From Chitinophagales bacterium (lineage in GTDB: Bacteria > Bacteroidota > Bacteroidia > Chitinophagales > Chitinophagaceae), in contig JANXQO010000169.1 of the NCBI GenBank assembly GCA_025353485.1, forward strand, positions 1-36,131: a stretch of DNA of 36,131 nt, written 5' to 3'. Shown here piece by piece: positions 5,931-12,453 of the stretch; position 1 is the first letter of the stretch, and each line of letters opens with the position of its first letter. The position numbers and the translations under genes were made by a program. A model generated the notes under the pieces. That model had not been told where the DNA came from. It made no database searches and saw nothing but the letters and a program-made list of their open reading frames with translations.

Positions 5931-7443
5931 AATCTTCATCATCCAACTCTTCTTCACTAAATGACCGGGCACCAAGATTTAGCATGCTTCCCATCAGATC
6001 TTTAAATTCAATTTTACCTTCTACTACTTTTTTGCTTATCATAGAATGTGTTGCCAGTCCGTGCAAAACAAATTCCATCAGCAACGCATTTTCTTTTGCA
6101 TTGGCATTAGGAAAATATTTTTTTACAAGCCCATACAAGCCATCTACTTTGTAAAGCAATTGCACTTTATCATCATCCTTACTTTCAAAAAAAACATTCA
6201 AATGATTACCTGCATCAAACCATCGGGTAATTCCCCGGTAAGGGTTTTCATCTGCCACACCCGCAGTTGTTTTTTTCTTTTTAAATGTATCAGGGTTGGG
6301 AAAATATTTTGCAAACTGTGTACGTATCGCTTTCTCCATTAAATTATAGGCAACCTGGTATGGGCCTTCCTGTTCACCTTCGTACACCAATTCAATTTTA
6401 CCTGTAATGGAAGGAATGATGCCTGTGAGATCGCTAATCCAAACCTGCGTTTCTTTTTCTTTATTGATGATCGCTCTTCTCTCCGCAGCGCTCACAGCAT
6501 TCTCATACGCAGCAATGGTAAGCCTTGCAGACACACCACTTTTTTTATCAACGTATTCACTGCCTCTTGCCTCAAATGCAACCTGCTCAATTAAACGCTT
6601 AACAAGATCGCTCACCTTTACTCTTTTAGATTGGTCATCATGTACTGATGCTTCCTGCTCAGTTATTAAAAGCGATGTTTCAATTGATGAAGGATAGTGG
6701 GTTAATATCTGGCTCTCAATCCTGTCTTTTAACGGAGTAACAATTGCGCCCCTGTTAGTATAATCTTCAGGGTTGGCAGTAAATACAAATAAAATATCAA
6801 GCGGTAATCTTAATTTAAAACCTCTTATCTGCAGATCACCTTCTTCCAAAATATTAAAAAGGGAAACCTGTATCCTCGCCTGCAGATCGGGCAATTCATT
6901 TATTACAAAAATGCTGCGGTTGCACCTGGGAATAATTCCATAATGTATCACTCTTTCATCTGCATAATTTAATTTTAGGTTGGCTGCTTTTATAGGATCT
7001 ATATCGCCAATAAGATCTGCTACACTTACATCAGGAGTAGCTAATTTTTCTCCAAAGCGTTCGCTGCGATGCAGCCATTCTATTGGAGTTTCATCGCCTT
7101 TTTCTTCCAATAGGTTTTTTGCATAACGGCTAAGCGGTGCAAATGGGTCATCATTTACTTCACTGCCTGCAACAATGGGAATATATTCATCCAGCAACTC
7201 TGTCATCTGCCTTGCCATTCTTGTTTTTGCCTGTCCACGCAAGCCCAAAAACAAAATATTATGGCGTGATAACAATGCCCTTTCTGTATCAGGAATTACT
7301 GAATCTTCGTATCCAAGAATGCCGGGAAAAGTAACTTCTTTTTTACTAATCTTCTTTATCAGGTTGGTACGAATTTCTTCTTTAATACTTTTAGAAACGT
7401 ATCCGCTCTTTTTTAATTCGCCTAATGTTTTAATGTCTTTCAT
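5923..7443 (-). CDS. Magnesium-chelatase-like AAA+ ATPase (MoxR/ChlI type)
   Basis: A 506-residue AAA+ ATPase. Walker A is the variant GLRGQAKTR, preceded by HNILFL; Walker B is FVINELPDL; a sensor region is FVFTANPEDYTNRG. The order and the long insert (WLHRSERFGEKLATPDVSVADLIGDIDPIKA) resemble ChlI/BchI and MoxR proteins. The partner is the VWA protein encoded 49 bp upstream on the same strand, giving a chelatase/MoxR-VWA pair that usually acts as a remodelling or metal-insertion machine. No protoporphyrin genes are nearby, so chlorophyll synthesis is unlikely; substrate unknown. The start codon CAT (7441-7443) lies at the edge of a degenerate copy of the 116-bp repeat seen around 8690. The C-terminus ends in an acidic EEELDDEDF tail. 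Confidence 0.88.
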   Translation of the reverse strand: MKDIKTLGELKKSGYVSKSIKEEIRTNLIKKISKKEVTFPGILGYEDSVIPDTERALLSRHNILFLGLRGQAKTRMARQMTELLDEYIPIVAGSEVNDDPFAPLSRYAKNLLEEKGDETPIEWLHRSERFGEKLATPDVSVADLIGDIDPIKAANLKLNYADERVIHYGIIPRCNRSIFVINELPDLQARIQVSLFNILEEGDLQIRGFKLRLPLDILFVFTANPEDYTNRGAIVTPLKDRIESQILTHYPSSIETSLLITEQEASVHDDQSKRVKVSDLVKRLIEQVAFEARGSEYVDKKSGVSARLTIAAYENAVSAAERRAIINKEKETQVWISDLTGIIPSITGKIELVYEGEQEGPYQVAYNLMEKAIRTQFAKYFPNPDTFKKKKTTAGVADENPYRGITRWFDAGNHLNVFFESKDDDKVQLLYKVDGLYGLVKKYFPNANAKENALLMEFVLHGLATHSMISKKVVEGKIEFKDLMGSMLNLGARSFSEEELDDEDFK

Positions 7444-7489
7444 TTGTTTTTTTTCTTATTAATCTTTTTAATCTCCCAAGTCATGGTTC
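7441..7489. repeat. Degenerate partial copy of the 116-bp GAACCATGA repeat
   Basis: This 49-bp stretch matches the right-hand third of the 116-bp element (8690-8805, 9202-9317), with a few substitutions and small indels: it keeps AATCTTTTTAATCTCCC and TCATGGTTC. It fills the gap between the VWA stop codon and the AAA+ start codon, and ends 3 bp from the VWA stop. No partner half with the left end is visible here. Confidence 0.75.
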
Positions 7490-7492
7490 AGA

Positions 7493-8590
7493 TCAATAAA
7501 CCGTCTTTCTCTTTCCGCTTTCAAAATCTTTAAAAATAAATGCACCTAACCTGTCAAGAGATGCAAAAAATGCCTTGCCATTATTTGTTTCAGTAAATTC
7601 TGTTACAAACCGCTGCAGGTAAGGGTCGCTGGCTATCATAAATGTTGTGATCGGAATTTTTAATTTCTTACACTGCGCTGCGAGATTCATACACCTGCTT
7701 AAAATTCTTCTGTCTACACCGAAACTGTTTTTGTAATAACGCTTGCCAACTTTTAAGCAAGTTGGTTTGCCATCGGTTATCATAAAAATTTGTTTGTTAG
7801 GGTTTTTTCTTCTGCGTAAAATATCCATTGCAAGTTCCAATCCTGCAACAGTATTTGTGTGATAGGGACCAACCTGCAAATAAGGAAGATCTTTTATTTC
7901 TATTGACCATGCATCATTGCCGAACACTACAATATCCAAAGTATCTTTGGGATATTTTGTAGTAATAAGTTCGCTTAATGCCATCGCTACTTTTTTGGCC
8001 GGCGTTATCCTGTCTTCTCCATACAGGATCATGGAGTGAGAAATATCAATCATCAAAACTGTAGAGGTTTGTGCTTTAAAATCTGTCTCTCTTATTTCAA
8101 GATCATCTTCCTGCATTTTAAAACTATCAATGCCATGATTGATCTGTGCATTGCGAATGGATGCTGTGAAATCTATCTGCTCTACTGAATCACCAAATTG
8201 AAATGATCTAGTTTCAGGGTTTATTTCATCGCCGCCACCAGGCTTAAATGTATTGTGATTGCCCTGCTTTGTTTTTTTAAGTTTGCCAAAAATTTCTTCA
8301 AGACTTTTTTTCCTGATCCCCTGTTCTGTTTTTGGAGTGATCTTAATTTCGCCGGTTTGTTTATTGTCGTCAATGTATCCTTTGTCTTTAAGGTCTTCAA
8401 TAAAATCGCCAATACCATATTCTTCATTAGTAAGATCATATTCTTTATCCAACTCTGTAAGCCAGCTCAATGCTTCTGCAACATCGCCGCTTGTATAAGT
8501 AAGTAATTGCATAAATGCATCAAGCAATTTCTCAAACGAAGTTTTGCCATTTTGTTTGGGATCGTATTTTGAAAAATTGTGGCCGTGCAT
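7493..8590 (-). CDS. VWA domain protein, partner of the AAA+ ATPase
   Basis: A 365-residue protein with a von Willebrand A domain in its second half. The metal-ion-dependent adhesion site is visible: DISHS (182-186), a Thr in TNT (245-247) and D273 in MITDGKPT. The N-terminal 130 residues are helical and charged, with no signal peptide, so it is likely cytoplasmic. VWA proteins of this kind bind AAA+ ATPases such as ChlI/MoxR and present the substrate, as ChlD and CoxE do. It is encoded directly upstream of such an ATPase, with a repeat remnant in the 49-bp gap. Start ATG at 8590 is preceded by a low-complexity tract. Function of the pair is unknown. Confidence 0.87.
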   Translation of the reverse strand: MHGHNFSKYDPKQNGKTSFEKLLDAFMQLLTYTSGDVAEALSWLTELDKEYDLTNEEYGIGDFIEDLKDKGYIDDNKQTGEIKITPKTEQGIRKKSLEEIFGKLKKTKQGNHNTFKPGGGDEINPETRSFQFGDSVEQIDFTASIRNAQINHGIDSFKMQEDDLEIRETDFKAQTSTVLMIDISHSMILYGEDRITPAKKVAMALSELITTKYPKDTLDIVVFGNDAWSIEIKDLPYLQVGPYHTNTVAGLELAMDILRRRKNPNKQIFMITDGKPTCLKVGKRYYKNSFGVDRRILSRCMNLAAQCKKLKIPITTFMIASDPYLQRFVTEFTETNNGKAFFASLDRLGAFIFKDFESGKRKTVY

Positions 8591-8594
8591 AAAT

Positions 8595-8630
8595 AGATGT
8601 ACGAAAGTATGATGTAAGAAGTACGATGTA
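8595..8630. repeat. GATGTACGAAGTACGATGTA-type low-complexity repeat
   Basis: An iterated tract of GATGTA, GTACGA and AGAAGTA units just upstream of the VWA start codon. A closely similar tract occurs at 31504-31533 between pruA and pyrR, so this is a dispersed repeat family and not chance. Confidence 0.6.
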
Positions 8631-8689
8631 TAATCAGTGCAATTTACGAATAAACTTTGTGCGCACAGAAGCGGGGCTTTGTTAAATTG

Positions 8690-8805
8690 TCTGAACCATG
8701 ATTTGGGTAGATTATGGGATTAAAGAGATTTAAGATTATTGTTTCGAAGTTTTTATATTTCATTTTTTTCTTCTTAATCTTTTTAATCTCCCCAAATCAT
8801 GGTTC
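8690..8805. repeat. 116-bp repeat, copy 1 (flanks the GxxExxY gene)
   Basis: Identical base for base to 9202-9317. Its ends form a perfect 15-bp inverted repeat (GAACCATGATTTGGG and its complement), and the inverted similarity continues imperfectly inward through AGATTA/TAATCT. It contains the last three codons' worth of the GxxExxY gene, including that gene's TGA stop (8797-8799, minus strand). Confidence 0.95.
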
Positions 8806-9198
8806 TAATACTTTATACTTTTGATTTTCTAATCTTTTAAATTGTAGGCTGATAGAACCAAAATTAAGGAGTAATCCTACTTGCATATTGTATGCTTCTA
8901 AATAATTTTTGCCTTGTGCAAGATGAACATTTTCTAATTGGATAATGGCTTTTATTTCTACCATTATTTTCTCCTCTACAAAAAAATCTACTCTTCTTTC
9001 ACCAATCTGCCTGCTTTTGTAATAAACCGGCATACTTAATTCTCTTGCAAACTTTAGCCCTGATTCTTCCATTTCAATTTCTAAAGCTCTTTGATAAATC
9101 ACTTCCTGAAACCCATTACCAAGAGCAGCATGCACCTTCATTGCAGCACCAATTATTTTTTCTGTTATCTCTTTGTATTTATATTCTTTCTGTTCCAT
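8797..9198 (-). CDS. GxxExxY protein (PD-(D/E)XK nuclease superfamily)
   Basis: A 133-residue protein with the family's name-giving motif G29-FQE32-VIY35 in ALGNGFQEVIYQRALE. A PD-(D/E)XK-like catalytic core is visible: D71 in RVDFFV and E81-I-K83 in MVEIKAI, followed by the conserved GLLLNFGS and FKRL segments. GxxExxY proteins are widespread, multi-copy and of unproven function in Bacteroidota. The gene begins 3 bp from one copy of a 116-bp repeat and its final codons, Glu-Pro-stop, lie inside the other copy. The two copies are identical, so the arrangement is probably recent. It sits between a VWA gene and a DUF2723 gene, all on the minus strand. Nuclease activity is inferred from the motif only. 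Confidence 0.92.
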   Translation of the reverse strand: MEQKEYKYKEITEKIIGAAMKVHAALGNGFQEVIYQRALEIEMEESGLKFARELSMPVYYKSRQIGERRVDFFVEEKIMVEIKAIIQLENVHLAQGKNYLEAYNMQVGLLLNFGSISLQFKRLENQKYKVLEP

Positions 9199-9201
9199 TA
9201 T

Positions 9202-9317
9202 TCTGAACCATGATTTGGGTAGATTATGGGATTAAAGAGATTTAAGATTATTGTTTCGAAGTTTTTATATTTCATTTTTTTCTTCTTAATCTTTTTAATC
9301 TCCCCAAATCATGGTTC
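9202..9317. repeat. 116-bp repeat, copy 2 (flanks the GxxExxY gene)
   Basis: Exact direct repeat of 8690-8805, 512 bp away. It starts 3 bp upstream of the GxxExxY start codon and ends 7 bp before the complement of the DUF2723 stop codon, so it also forms the 3' flank of that gene. Confidence 0.95.
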
Positions 9318-9324
9318 GGAAATG

Positions 9325-12300
9325 TTATTTCTTTTTTGGATTTACTGCATCGGTCTTGTTCTTATTGCTATCTTTTGGCGCTGGCAGGTTATTAATTACA
9401 GGTTTTTGCGTTTCAGTATTAAGAACCGGTTTTGGTGTTGTAAAATATTGCTGCATTTGCTGTATCTGTTGCAATATCTGTATGGTTCTTTGATTATCGT
9501 TAACAAGGGCGCCCTGTTTATCTTCATCAAGGGCATTAAAATAAACTATTTCCTGTTCCAGATCTTTACGAAGGCTTGCATAAACTTTATTAGCCAAAAG
9601 GGTATCACCTGCTTTGTAGGCTGCTAAAAGAAATTGTCCTGATATCTGGTTATGCCTTTCATCACGGGAAACCATTCCATAAGGAAAATTTTCCTGCAAC
9701 ATCATCTTATCGCATCGCTCCAACAATTTTTTCGCATCTCCTTTCCTTTCGTTATCTGCTAAATTAAGCGCTGCCAATGCATACTGCATCCTGATTGTAT
9801 TAAGATGTCTGCGGTTTTCCTCATCATAATAAACGCCATGCTTATCAGCATTACCAAATACAAATTTGTTCAGCATTTTATCTACTACCCAATTGCGGTT
9901 AACTTCACTGTTTTTTAAAGGAACGAGACGATAGGTTAAGCCATCGGTTCTTAAATATGTTCCAAACCCCAGTTCATCATACGGCGAAGTAAAATATATC
10001 GGACGCTTCCATTTATTAGCTGCAATAATATTAAGTATAGCTGCATCATTTTTACCAATAACATTTTTTGGAAGGGTGAAGTCAAGCTCACTAACAACAC
10101 TGTCATCAATATTGACAGTTCCGTTTTTACGGACAAGATCAAGATCAACAGGAACCTTTATATTTTTTGATGGATAGATATTTAAATATTCCTCCTGCCC
10201 CTGTGGTAAATACATTTTATTGGGATCATCACTTCCTGCATAATCTCTAAGTAATGTATCCAGTGCTAAAGGTTTAGTTTGATCAACAGTTGATCCCGGT
10301 AAATCAGGAAAGAAATAAACAGCATCTCTTTTGCTTCCTAATATCTGGTCCGCTGTCCAGATCAGGTCAATAGGATCGCTTTGATTTACTTTATATCTTA
10401 ATTCATTAATGTACCAATCTGTACCTAATAAACTTGAGTTTATTACACGTATATCTCTTCTAACACCTTCCACTTCCTGAGCATACCATAAAGGATATGT
10501 ATCATTATCACCAAAGGTTATAAGAATTGCATTAGGAGCACAACTTTCTAAATAATCAATGGCAAGGTCTCTTGCTAAAACTTTTTTACTACGGTCATGA
10601 TCATCCCATTCCTGAAACCCCATTATTACAGGTACTGCTAATGTACATACGGCTGCAGCAACATAACCTGCCATTCTGTTCTCCATTATTTTGTTGAGCA
10701 GTTCTTTTACATACAACACACCAATGCCAATCCAAAATGCAAATGCATAGAACGAACCTACGTACGCATAATCCCTTTCACGTGGCTGGTTGCCTGCCTG
10801 GTTCAAATAAAATACAACAGCAAAGCCGGTAAAGAAAAAGAGAAGACCAATTACTAATGTATCTCTTTTATCTTTTTTATATTGATAAATAAAACCAAGT
10901 ATTCCTAAAATTAAAGGCAGTGCAAAAAGATTATTATTTGCCTTGTTGTGTTTTAAACTATCCGGCATTTTACTTTGATCGCCGAGCCGAAAACTATCCC
11001 AAAAAGGTATTCCTGTTTTCCAGTTTCCATCTCTTCGGTTGCCTACATCAATTCCCTGTACATCATTTTGCTTACCTGCAAAATTCCACATAAAATACCG
11101 CAGATACATCCAGTTAGTTTGATAACCAATAGCAAACTTTATGTTATCACCCATCGTCGGCTTTCCTGAATAGGCCCCTGTTTTAGGATCTTTCGTAACA
11201 TTATCAGTAAATCCCAGATAATAATCTGCATGCCCCTGTTCATTACTTGCATCCCACATGCGTGGAAAGAAATGAAGGTCGTCCTCTGCATAAATGGTTT
11301 CATACCTTCTACCTTTTTTCTCATATTTATCTTTTCCCTTTACATAGGTATCAATGGGTTTTTGTTCTAATACCTCAGCAGTAAAATCCTGTCCTTTTAT
11401 AATAGGCCAATCACCATATTGTTCACGGCTTAAATATCCAACAAGACTTACCGGATTATCAACATTAAACATATCAACAGATGGATCAGCATTGGAGCGG
11501 ATAAGCGTTGTATAATAAGTAGAGAAGCCAAGAAGAATGAATGCGAAACTCCACATGGCTAACTTTAAAAAATTCCAGTTTCTTTTGTTGGCAAGTCTTA
11601 TCGTAAAAAAAATAAGAACACCCATTAAAATAAAGAAGAATCCAAAGCCAAAGAAAAATGGCATTCCCAAAGAATTTTTAAAAAAAATATCAAACTGGCC
11701 AGCTAATTTAATTGTCCACTGTATCACCGGTATTTGCACAATGCCTGTTACAAGACAACCAATTAAGAAAGCGTAAAAAGTTCCTTTACGGGTAACCTTA
11801 TATCTTTTAAAATAATAGATCATTACAATGGCAGGGATGGTAAGGAGATTTAGTAAATGCACGCCCACTGCTAAACCAATCAAATAAAATATTAAAATAA
11901 GCCAACGGTCTGCTCTTGTAAAATTTCCTTTAATTCCTACTTTTTGTTCCTGTGTTACCTCATGCTCCCATTTTAAAATTGCCCAAAATACAATAGCCGT
12001 AAAAAAAGAAGACAATGCATACACCTCGCCTTCTACAGCGCTGTACCAAAATGAATCAGAAAAAGTATAGGCAAGTGCACCTACAATGCCCGCTGCCATT
12101 ATGCTGAAGAGTTGATTGGTGGTTATTACGTCAGCATCTTTTTGAACTATTTTTCTTGCAAAGTGCGTAATGCTCCAGAATAAAAACAATATCGTAAATC
12201 CACTGGATAATGCACTCATTGTATTTACACCAAGCGCTGCATGATGTGCATCCAGCGGGATAGTGAATAACCTTGCAATCAACACAAATAATGGAGCGCC

Positions 12301-12453
12301 GGGTGGATGTGGAATTTGAAGTTTATAGGCGCTGGAAACAAATTCTCCGCAATCCCAAAAACTGCCTGTTGCTTCCATCGTCATCAAATACACGGTGGAT
12401 GCAATAAGAAATACCGCCCAGCCCGTTAAGTTATTTATCTTTTTAAAGCTCAT
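9325..12453 (-). CDS. DUF2723 family polytopic membrane protein (GT-C glycosyltransferase-like)
   Basis: A 1042-residue protein with a hydrophobic N-terminal half of roughly a dozen membrane segments and a soluble C-terminal half. The N-terminus GWAVFLIASTVYLMTMEATGS followed by FWDCGEF (residues 32-38) and IPHPPGAPLFVL is the hallmark of DUF2723. Acidic residues D34 and E37 fall in the first loop after a membrane helix, the position of the catalytic acid in GT-C glycosyltransferases, so a role in transferring sugars from a lipid carrier at the outer face of the inner membrane is plausible. This is inference. The C-terminus ends in a Lys-rich tail. It is single-gene, with a TAnnTTTG box (12477-12484) upstream and a 116-bp repeat right after its stop. 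Confidence 0.9.
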   Translation of the reverse strand: MSFKKINNLTGWAVFLIASTVYLMTMEATGSFWDCGEFVSSAYKLQIPHPPGAPLFVLIARLFTIPLDAHHAALGVNTMSALSSGFTILFLFWSITHFARKIVQKDADVITTNQLFSIMAAGIVGALAYTFSDSFWYSAVEGEVYALSSFFTAIVFWAILKWEHEVTQEQKVGIKGNFTRADRWLILIFYLIGLAVGVHLLNLLTIPAIVMIYYFKRYKVTRKGTFYAFLIGCLVTGIVQIPVIQWTIKLAGQFDIFFKNSLGMPFFFGFGFFFILMGVLIFFTIRLANKRNWNFLKLAMWSFAFILLGFSTYYTTLIRSNADPSVDMFNVDNPVSLVGYLSREQYGDWPIIKGQDFTAEVLEQKPIDTYVKGKDKYEKKGRRYETIYAEDDLHFFPRMWDASNEQGHADYYLGFTDNVTKDPKTGAYSGKPTMGDNIKFAIGYQTNWMYLRYFMWNFAGKQNDVQGIDVGNRRDGNWKTGIPFWDSFRLGDQSKMPDSLKHNKANNNLFALPLILGILGFIYQYKKDKRDTLVIGLLFFFTGFAVVFYLNQAGNQPRERDYAYVGSFYAFAFWIGIGVLYVKELLNKIMENRMAGYVAAAVCTLAVPVIMGFQEWDDHDRSKKVLARDLAIDYLESCAPNAILITFGDNDTYPLWYAQEVEGVRRDIRVINSSLLGTDWYINELRYKVNQSDPIDLIWTADQILGSKRDAVYFFPDLPGSTVDQTKPLALDTLLRDYAGSDDPNKMYLPQGQEEYLNIYPSKNIKVPVDLDLVRKNGTVNIDDSVVSELDFTLPKNVIGKNDAAILNIIAANKWKRPIYFTSPYDELGFGTYLRTDGLTYRLVPLKNSEVNRNWVVDKMLNKFVFGNADKHGVYYDEENRRHLNTIRMQYALAALNLADNERKGDAKKLLERCDKMMLQENFPYGMVSRDERHNQISGQFLLAAYKAGDTLLANKVYASLRKDLEQEIVYFNALDEDKQGALVNDNQRTIQILQQIQQMQQYFTTPKPVLNTETQKPVINNLPAPKDSNKNKTDAVNPKKK

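Follow-up and report, generated by a model that had tools for sequence, protein, structure and literature searches.

The window, by which we mean the whole stretch of 36,131 nucleotides that was analysed, contains at positions 8,690 to 9,317 a small gene enclosed by two copies of a palindromic repeat. The genes on either side, one TMEM260-like and one encoding a VWA domain, lie on the same strand as the enclosed gene. The features of the locus are:

7423 to 7489, unstranded: half of a gene-less unit at the VWA/ATPase junction, where genomes G014 and G018 bear a gene-carrying element
7493 to 8590, minus strand: VWA-domain gene, the neighbour downstream of the element (ORF and domain call)
8690 to 8805, unstranded: downstream palindromic unit of 116 bp, identical to 9202 to 9317 and containing the stop codon of the nuclease gene
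8797 to 9198, minus strand: GxxExxY gene for a predicted PD-(D/E)XK nuclease of 133 amino acids, with the motif at G29/E32/Y35 and D71, E81 and K83 as the likely active site
9202 to 9317, unstranded: upstream palindromic unit (in the sense of the gene) of 116 bp, two inverted arms around a middle
9325 to 12453, minus strand: TMEM260-like gene, the neighbour upstream of the element (ORF and domain call)

The repeat–gene–repeat arrangement is confirmed. As the sequence-only reading had described, the 116-bp direct repeats are identical, with the identity stopping exactly at both borders, their starts are 512 bp apart, and the gene begins 3 bp from one copy and has its stop codon within the other. 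The perfect 15-bp inverted ends that it reported (GAACCATGATTTGGG / CCCAAATCATGGTTC) are real, although one of them is offset by three outer bases (TCT), and beyond them the arms run on as imperfect inverted repeats. The half repeat in the neighbouring junction was absent from that reading. The host genome gave 72 match rows to the 116-bp repeat, so the pair is not a chance occurrence; the actual units are fewer than the rows because either strand of a palindrome can give a match and partial stretches count separately. Folding 8687 to 8805 with RNA parameters gave z values of -7.6 and -9.1, and no Rfam match was found across positions 6500 to 11000 of the window.

The window protein belongs to the GxxExxY (PDDEXK_3) family, since it scores over the curated cut-off in profile searches (PF13366, E=6.7e-38; TIGR04256, E=9.7e-39) and contains the G-x-x-E-x-x-Y motif. 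Across 53 aligned sequences G29, E32, Y35, D71, K83, Q95, N112 and F113 are invariant and E81 is at least 90% conserved, in agreement with the nuclease-type residues picked out from the sequence earlier. An AlphaFold2 model (pLDDT 92.3, pTM 0.85) had as its top Foldseek match SSO0001 (4ic1, E=1.6e-4), which we take to be a Cas4 protein; all four matches at E≤0.001 are 4ic1 chains, and the next are tRNA-splicing endonucleases and lambda-type exonucleases. A sequence search against solved structures returned a single match with E=2. By its modelled fold and its D...ExK residues the protein is placed in the PD-(D/E)XK nuclease superfamily and is a predicted nuclease. Judged by substitution rates it is under purifying selection, with dN well below dS (0.08 against 1.2 for the window gene and L096). 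Within the genus 9 of 61 match rows contain in-frame stops, which together with the low dN suggests cycles of decay and renewed spread, the pattern that a selfish gene would show.

Relatives of the gene number at least 580, and the nearest named loci belong to Chitinophagaceae and other Bacteroidota MAGs, which places the host safely in Bacteroidota and probably in Chitinophagaceae. The best 80 are mostly from Bacteroidota, and beyond this phylum relatives occur in genomes labelled as Calditrichota, Ignavibacteria, Anaerolineales, Poribacteria, an Anabaena isolate and others. In a phylum-wide draw 59 of 118 genomes contained GxxExxY genes. A plasmid or phage origin was considered and rejected, with matches in only 8 of 72,556 plasmid records and in 0 of 50,697 phage records. 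We know of no assigned function for GxxExxY genes, and none turned up in the literature searched.

The usual unit around these genes is arm–gene–arm, with inverted arms of the form GTCTGAAC..GATT / AATC..GTTCAGAC. The left arm begins with GTCTGAAC and continues with GATT motifs every 8–11 bp or so, and the right arm is its mirror image, terminating in GTTCAGAC. At no more than one mismatch, both arm ends lie within 300 bp of the gene in 61 of the best 80 of the at least 580 relatives, compared with 8 of 993 random positions in the same loci, although the right ends of L114, L116 and L117 and the left ends of L101 and L145 resemble chance matches. Repeats flanking the gene, inverted or direct, were assessed with dinucleotide shuffles (p up to 0.01) and control genes, as a null made by pairing flanks across loci is inflated by the arms that the loci share. 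They were significant for 64 of 79 relatives (L120 was excluded for a short flank) and for 22 of 264 other ORFs in the same loci, the inverted repeats alone accounting for 56 of 79 and 10 of 264. Significant repeats also flanked 49 of the 55 distinct genes found in the genus and 41 of 51 genes in a phylum-wide set, the latter drawn from 50 loci that comprised the best-scoring matches returned and 20 picked by hand from other genomes. The remaining 15 of 79, 6 of 55 and 10 of 51 genes gave no significant flanking repeat. A general lack of flanking repeats at GxxExxY genes elsewhere, which the sequence-only reading had named as evidence against itself, is therefore not observed.

Of the 106 genes in this clade 88 have a GTC-type end, compared with 10 of 69 genes outside it, where the arms are built of other motifs such as CAGAG, CAAAG, CATAG and CGGAT. 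Among 99 clade loci the layout at no more than one mismatch was arm–gene–arm in 48. A full palindrome stood to the left of the gene in 18 loci and to the right in 19, counts that both include the 7 loci with one on each side, and in the remaining loci the ends were not found. A full palindrome on both sides, as in the window, is thus rare; the window itself falls outside this cut-off, as mismatches are more numerous at its outer end. Since arm–gene–arm is the usual layout and two full palindromes are a minority, the 116-bp repeat is the gene-less form of the unit, arm–middle–arm. The mobile unit is arm–gene–arm, and not repeat plus gene as had been proposed.

Of 20 regions of the window's genome (G000) that had been chosen for their repeat matches, 18 contain gene-less units with both ends, which measure mostly 91–125 bp and have conserved ends and a variable middle. 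The exact end-pair pattern occurs in 13 units of G000 and 12 of G001 and matches in 8 of 20 genomes, although the matches in G005 and G019 resemble chance; a reversed control pattern gave zero matches in the 20 genomes. In G000 the gene-less units of this arm type exceed the gene-bearing ones, and G017 keeps such units with no GxxExxY match found in it. Units can also be arrayed: seven exact end-pair units lie within about 13 kb at G001:C1:467085-480169, and L278 (960–1224) has four tandem left arms spaced 47–48 bp apart followed by one right arm.

Individual sites vary between genomes, most of which are drafts. At the VWA/ATPase junction, compared in 17 genomes, G014 and G018 have the gene-bearing element (broken in G014), G000 the half unit and 13 genomes no unit, while the G016 contig ends too early. 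The junction that holds the window element is without it in G007 and G017, where a terminator-like hairpin can be seen by eye. When eight gene-less sites of G000 were compared with three relatives by flanks-only queries, unit-free alleles were found at L279, L282, L285 and L286, with no target duplication at the three cleanest of these (L279, L282, L285), one of which has a short local difference. At the L285 site, where G000 has a gene-less unit and G007 none, G017 has about 1.9 kb of extra DNA with a 576-aa ORF (L406, G017:C91:3300-6300). The L281 site exists in three states, empty in G017, gene-less in G000 and gene-bearing in G007, and by eye the G000 unit (906–1017) is nested in outer arms of the G007 type. 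Such presence and absence at a single place is what a homing gene would leave. The sequence-only reading would have been refuted had solo and occupied forms never turned up at one locus, and here both are found.

Units shared by species at one place were compared in 12 pairs, of which 9 were usable and three had no unit at the threshold. Their arms are 0.73–1.00 identical, and in 7 of the 9 the middle falls within the shuffled range. The arms at the L293 site are of the GGGATT type in G007 and G017 and of the CATGATT type in G000, and as the types differ on both sides this suggests that the whole unit was replaced.

The two arms of an element agree with each other. Over positions 9–12 their identity is 0.80 within and 0.47 between elements, a difference reached in 0 of 2000 permutations (79 elements; the G018 locus is counted twice, as L096 and L049, here and in the G–U, outside-consensus, stop and ATG tallies below). 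Read on the sense strand, arm mismatches show no excess of G–U (85) over A–C (99), and none was seen in 54 loci of other clades (105 and 148), the power of this comparison not having been estimated. On a protein tree of 175 sequences the GTC end requires 25 changes, compared with 48–63 in 60 shuffles, and the motif classes 17 compared with 32–37. For GAATT or GATT arms the numbers are 2 and 5–6, for lodging in the kinase gene described below 1 and 3–5, and for lodging at the VWA gene 2 and 6–7 (L097 and L099 were labelled by eye); AAG or GAG arms fit weakly, with 8 changes compared with 8–15. On this tree both the arm motif and the insertion target go with the nuclease lineage, and shared host ancestry can add to the linkage.

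Elements of one subclade share a single insertion point within histidine-kinase-like genes, one codon (LSL|SYDIV), in G000, G001, G011, G015 and G016 (loci L010, L080/L198, L086/L217, L183 and L190; the G000 kinase copy matches HATPase_c with E=3e-23). To the left of the element stands a copy of the kinase end, whose stop codon (GTC TGA or GTC TAA) lies in the left arm. The displaced kinase end comes after the right arm, and in G015 there are two such displaced ends in succession. A simple target duplication was considered and rejected, as the left and right copies are mutually closest at 0 of 5 loci.

One pair of these elements, L086 in G016 and L183 in G001, is much closer than the genes around it. 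The nuclease dS is 0.123 (124 codons), compared with 1.174 (387 codons) for the adjoining kinase and 1.916 (365 codons) for the VWA gene. The near-identical tract extends some 15 bp beyond the outer edge of each arm, and within the left arm a local insert or repeats set the two copies apart. In 60-bp windows identity is 0.90–1.00 from the gene start to +420, compared with 0.68–0.84 in the 600 bp to the left and 0.61–0.78 from +480 to +780. A stretch 600–900 bp upstream is likewise 0.85–0.98 identical, so that gene was touched by other recombination as well. The pair is the one clear case in which only the element passed to the corresponding site of another genome, as would be expected of a homing gene. 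Nine gene pairs share at least 84% DNA identity: L086/L183 and L190/L198 have diverged flanks, L078/L176 (90% identical) is a near-copy at an unrelated place, its flanks giving no meaningful alignment, in L161/L163 the left flanks are alike, and in five pairs the flanks on either side are, as vertical descent would give. Such descent is possible for the VWA-lodged and Mucilaginibacter groups. The interspecies transfer at the kinase site and the three states of L281 support the earlier proposal of a small nuclease cassette that moves.

Elements tend to sit between genes that read in the same direction. Both neighbours follow the direction of the nuclease gene at 57 of 71 loci, both oppose it at 2 and they are mixed at 12, as counted by simple ORF picking with three of the 80 loci excluded for want of a recognised ORF of their own; among other adjacent gene pairs 256 of 335 are on the same strand. 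Just beyond the arms the consensus reads AAAWT to the left and AAT to the right. The left arm makes the stop codon of the upstream gene in 22 of 79 loci and in 22 more the stop lies up to 20 bp before it, while the ATG of the next gene lies within the right arm in 9 of 79 and at -2 to +5 in 18. Neighbours were compared with Pfam, 60 of the 74 known upstream and 61 of the 74 known downstream; recurrent domains are HSDR_N (7 and 5) and Methylase_S (7 and 5), and other junctions involve genes for ThiC (3), aconitase-type proteins (3 and 4), KARI (2) and HisG (2). Type I restriction-modification genes are recurrent neighbours among L096–L175. The element at L119 has to its right a second copy of the 3′ end of an HsdR-type gene, with 45 of 46 bases identical, and at L177 (G001:C23) a stretch coding for the N-terminal part of HsdM (N6_Mtase, HsdM_N) lies on either side of the element.

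In sum, the predicted nuclease cassette looks, from sequence comparison, like a very small mobile element, because its arms match, one site exists in three states and the arms mark the limits of a recent transfer between species. The fuller account, in which an element of roughly 0.5 kb carries the GxxExxY nuclease as its single gene and is copied in a homing-like way by break repair, we consider evenly poised between right and wrong. The nuclease would recognise its own arms, or the junction that its lineage targets, and make a break or nick there, and repair from a gene-bearing copy would paste the element in, arm to arm, as a homing gene does. Loss of the gene would leave gene-less units that are open to re-colonisation. 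Cutting of plain gene-less duplexes by the predicted nuclease is doubtful, as both-ended gene-less units coexist with an intact gene in the same genome. A possible substrate is the palindrome extruded as a hairpin or cruciform, since the gene-less middles are mostly at random identity between species while the arms are kept. A structure-directed cut at extruded palindromes would hit gene-less copies and might spare gene-bearing ones, in which the gene, as a spacer of 0.4 kb, should hinder extrusion.

The encoded protein need not be the mover, because genes for four-helix-bundle proteins, which are not nucleases, sit in similarly built arms. The main rival, possible though not the likelier outcome in our view, is accordingly that the unit is mobile but is moved in trans, by a transposase or by host replication and repair acting on palindromes, with the nuclease as passenger, helper or stabiliser. 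In the genus the four-helix-bundle genes (TIGR02436; loci L346–L375, all 30 of 30 placed by match coordinates) have similar arms of other motifs at 24 of 30 loci, 23 of them inverted; a cruder pass that took the ORF nearest the locus centre gave 20 of 25. The surplus of gene-less over gene-bearing units in G000 and the retention of units in G017 fit this account as well. It explains less readily why arm motif and target track the nuclease tree and why the nuclease should be under purifying selection, and the Y1/RAYT-type genes that might supply a mover bear other hairpins, the GTCTGAAC/GTTCAGAC pair being present at 0 of 24. The arms of the four-helix-bundle (S23/IVS-type) genes consist of tandem short motifs such as GGTTCAA, TAGTTCG and GGTTTCG.

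The orientation of the neighbours, the stop and start codons lying in the arms and the strong hairpins at the window would also suit an element acting at the RNA level, like the 23S rRNA intervening sequences, with arms that pair in the transcript and an element that spreads through RNA; the Coxiella intervening sequence of 428 nt has terminal inverted repeats and one small ORF (PMC4990558). We consider this unlikely, given that G–U pairs are not in excess over A–C mismatches, that the region from 6500 to 11000 has no Rfam match and protein genes as neighbours, that the sense bias could equally reflect selection against blocking operons, and that strong folds are expected of any long palindrome. 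Even less probable is an ordinary DDE-type inverted-repeat transposon with MITE derivatives: inverted ends, gene-less derivatives and an outside preference (AAAWT|..|AAT) point that way, but the gene has a PD-(D/E)XK-type fold and the three cleanest empty sites lack a target duplication. We likewise give very little credence to a resident regulatory palindrome, a terminator or attenuator inherited vertically with a host nuclease gene. Some units are indeed common to relatives at one place, and the window element occupies the position of the terminator-like hairpin seen by eye in G007 and G017, but this account is largely contradicted by the L086/L183 transfer tract, the unrelated flanks of L078/L176 and the empty sites.

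Read as a nuclease-bearing mobile element, the unit shares features with several known systems. Free-standing homing endonuclease genes include PD-(D/E)XK ones such as I-Ssp6803I. The resemblance lies in a small predicted nuclease as the only gene, presence and absence at one site, a target whose 3′ end is restored by a copy beside the element and a target linked to lineage; the differences are the inverted motif-array borders of the window element, its many gene-less copies, its often intergenic position and a cleavage that is only predicted. Insertion sequences and MITEs have inverted ends and non-autonomous derivatives, and here too there are inverted ends and gene-less derivatives. Unlike them, the unit has neither a DDE nor a Y1 (HUH) transposase, its only gene being of the PD-(D/E)XK type, and no target-site duplication was found at the sites checked. 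REPINs are short units of two inverted arms dispersed in a genome, much as the two-armed units are scattered here, whereas the gene linked to our unit is a nuclease inside it and no RAYT gene is linked to the same repeat. A RAYT/REPIN link (RAYT transposases of REPINs are treated in the accessible part of PMC3116915) was tried and rejected: none of 24 Y1_Tnp loci had the GTCTGAAC/GTTCAGAC pair at no more than one mismatch (0 of 23 in a cruder pass; of L376–L405, 30 were fetched, 25 given and 24 analysed). The Y1/RAYT-type genes of the genus have their own hairpins, with significant inverted flanking repeats in 15 of 24.

For the Coxiella 23S rRNA intervening sequence, with its terminal inverted repeats and S23 ORF in 428 nt, mobile origins have been raised as hypotheses (PMC4990558). 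The element resembles it in size (about 0.4–0.5 kb), terminal inverted repeats and single small ORF, but lies outside rRNA genes, encodes a nuclease in place of a four-helix bundle and has an arm symmetry unlike that of a stem kept as RNA pairing. The Rpn/YhgA recombination-promoting nucleases link a nuclease family to DNA transfer; they are a different family, and the accessible part of PMC5350276 mentions no inverted-arm unit for them. GxxExxY is named in PMC8934634. In the literature searched, which did not extend to subscription papers, we found no description of GxxExxY genes with such repeats, so that the element is of a kind not described there and its novelty is provisional.

A wider suggestion, which we put forward tentatively and think more likely wrong than right, is that these units represent a new class of bacterial element in which inverted and roughly helically phased motif arrays bound one small gene, with the nuclease as a structure-directed homing enzyme acting on the extruded palindrome of gene-less copies and with the four-helix-bundle units as further members. 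The 23S rRNA intervening sequences would then be relatives that landed in rRNA, and the class would account for many of the short palindromic repeats of Bacteroidota genomes. If GxxExxY genes are the genes of tiny mobile elements, the family gains a role and intergenic palindromes are tied to a mobile system. The mobile-element reading also predicts matched pairs of nuclease and DNA arm, and it offers a lead on the origin of the rRNA intervening sequences.
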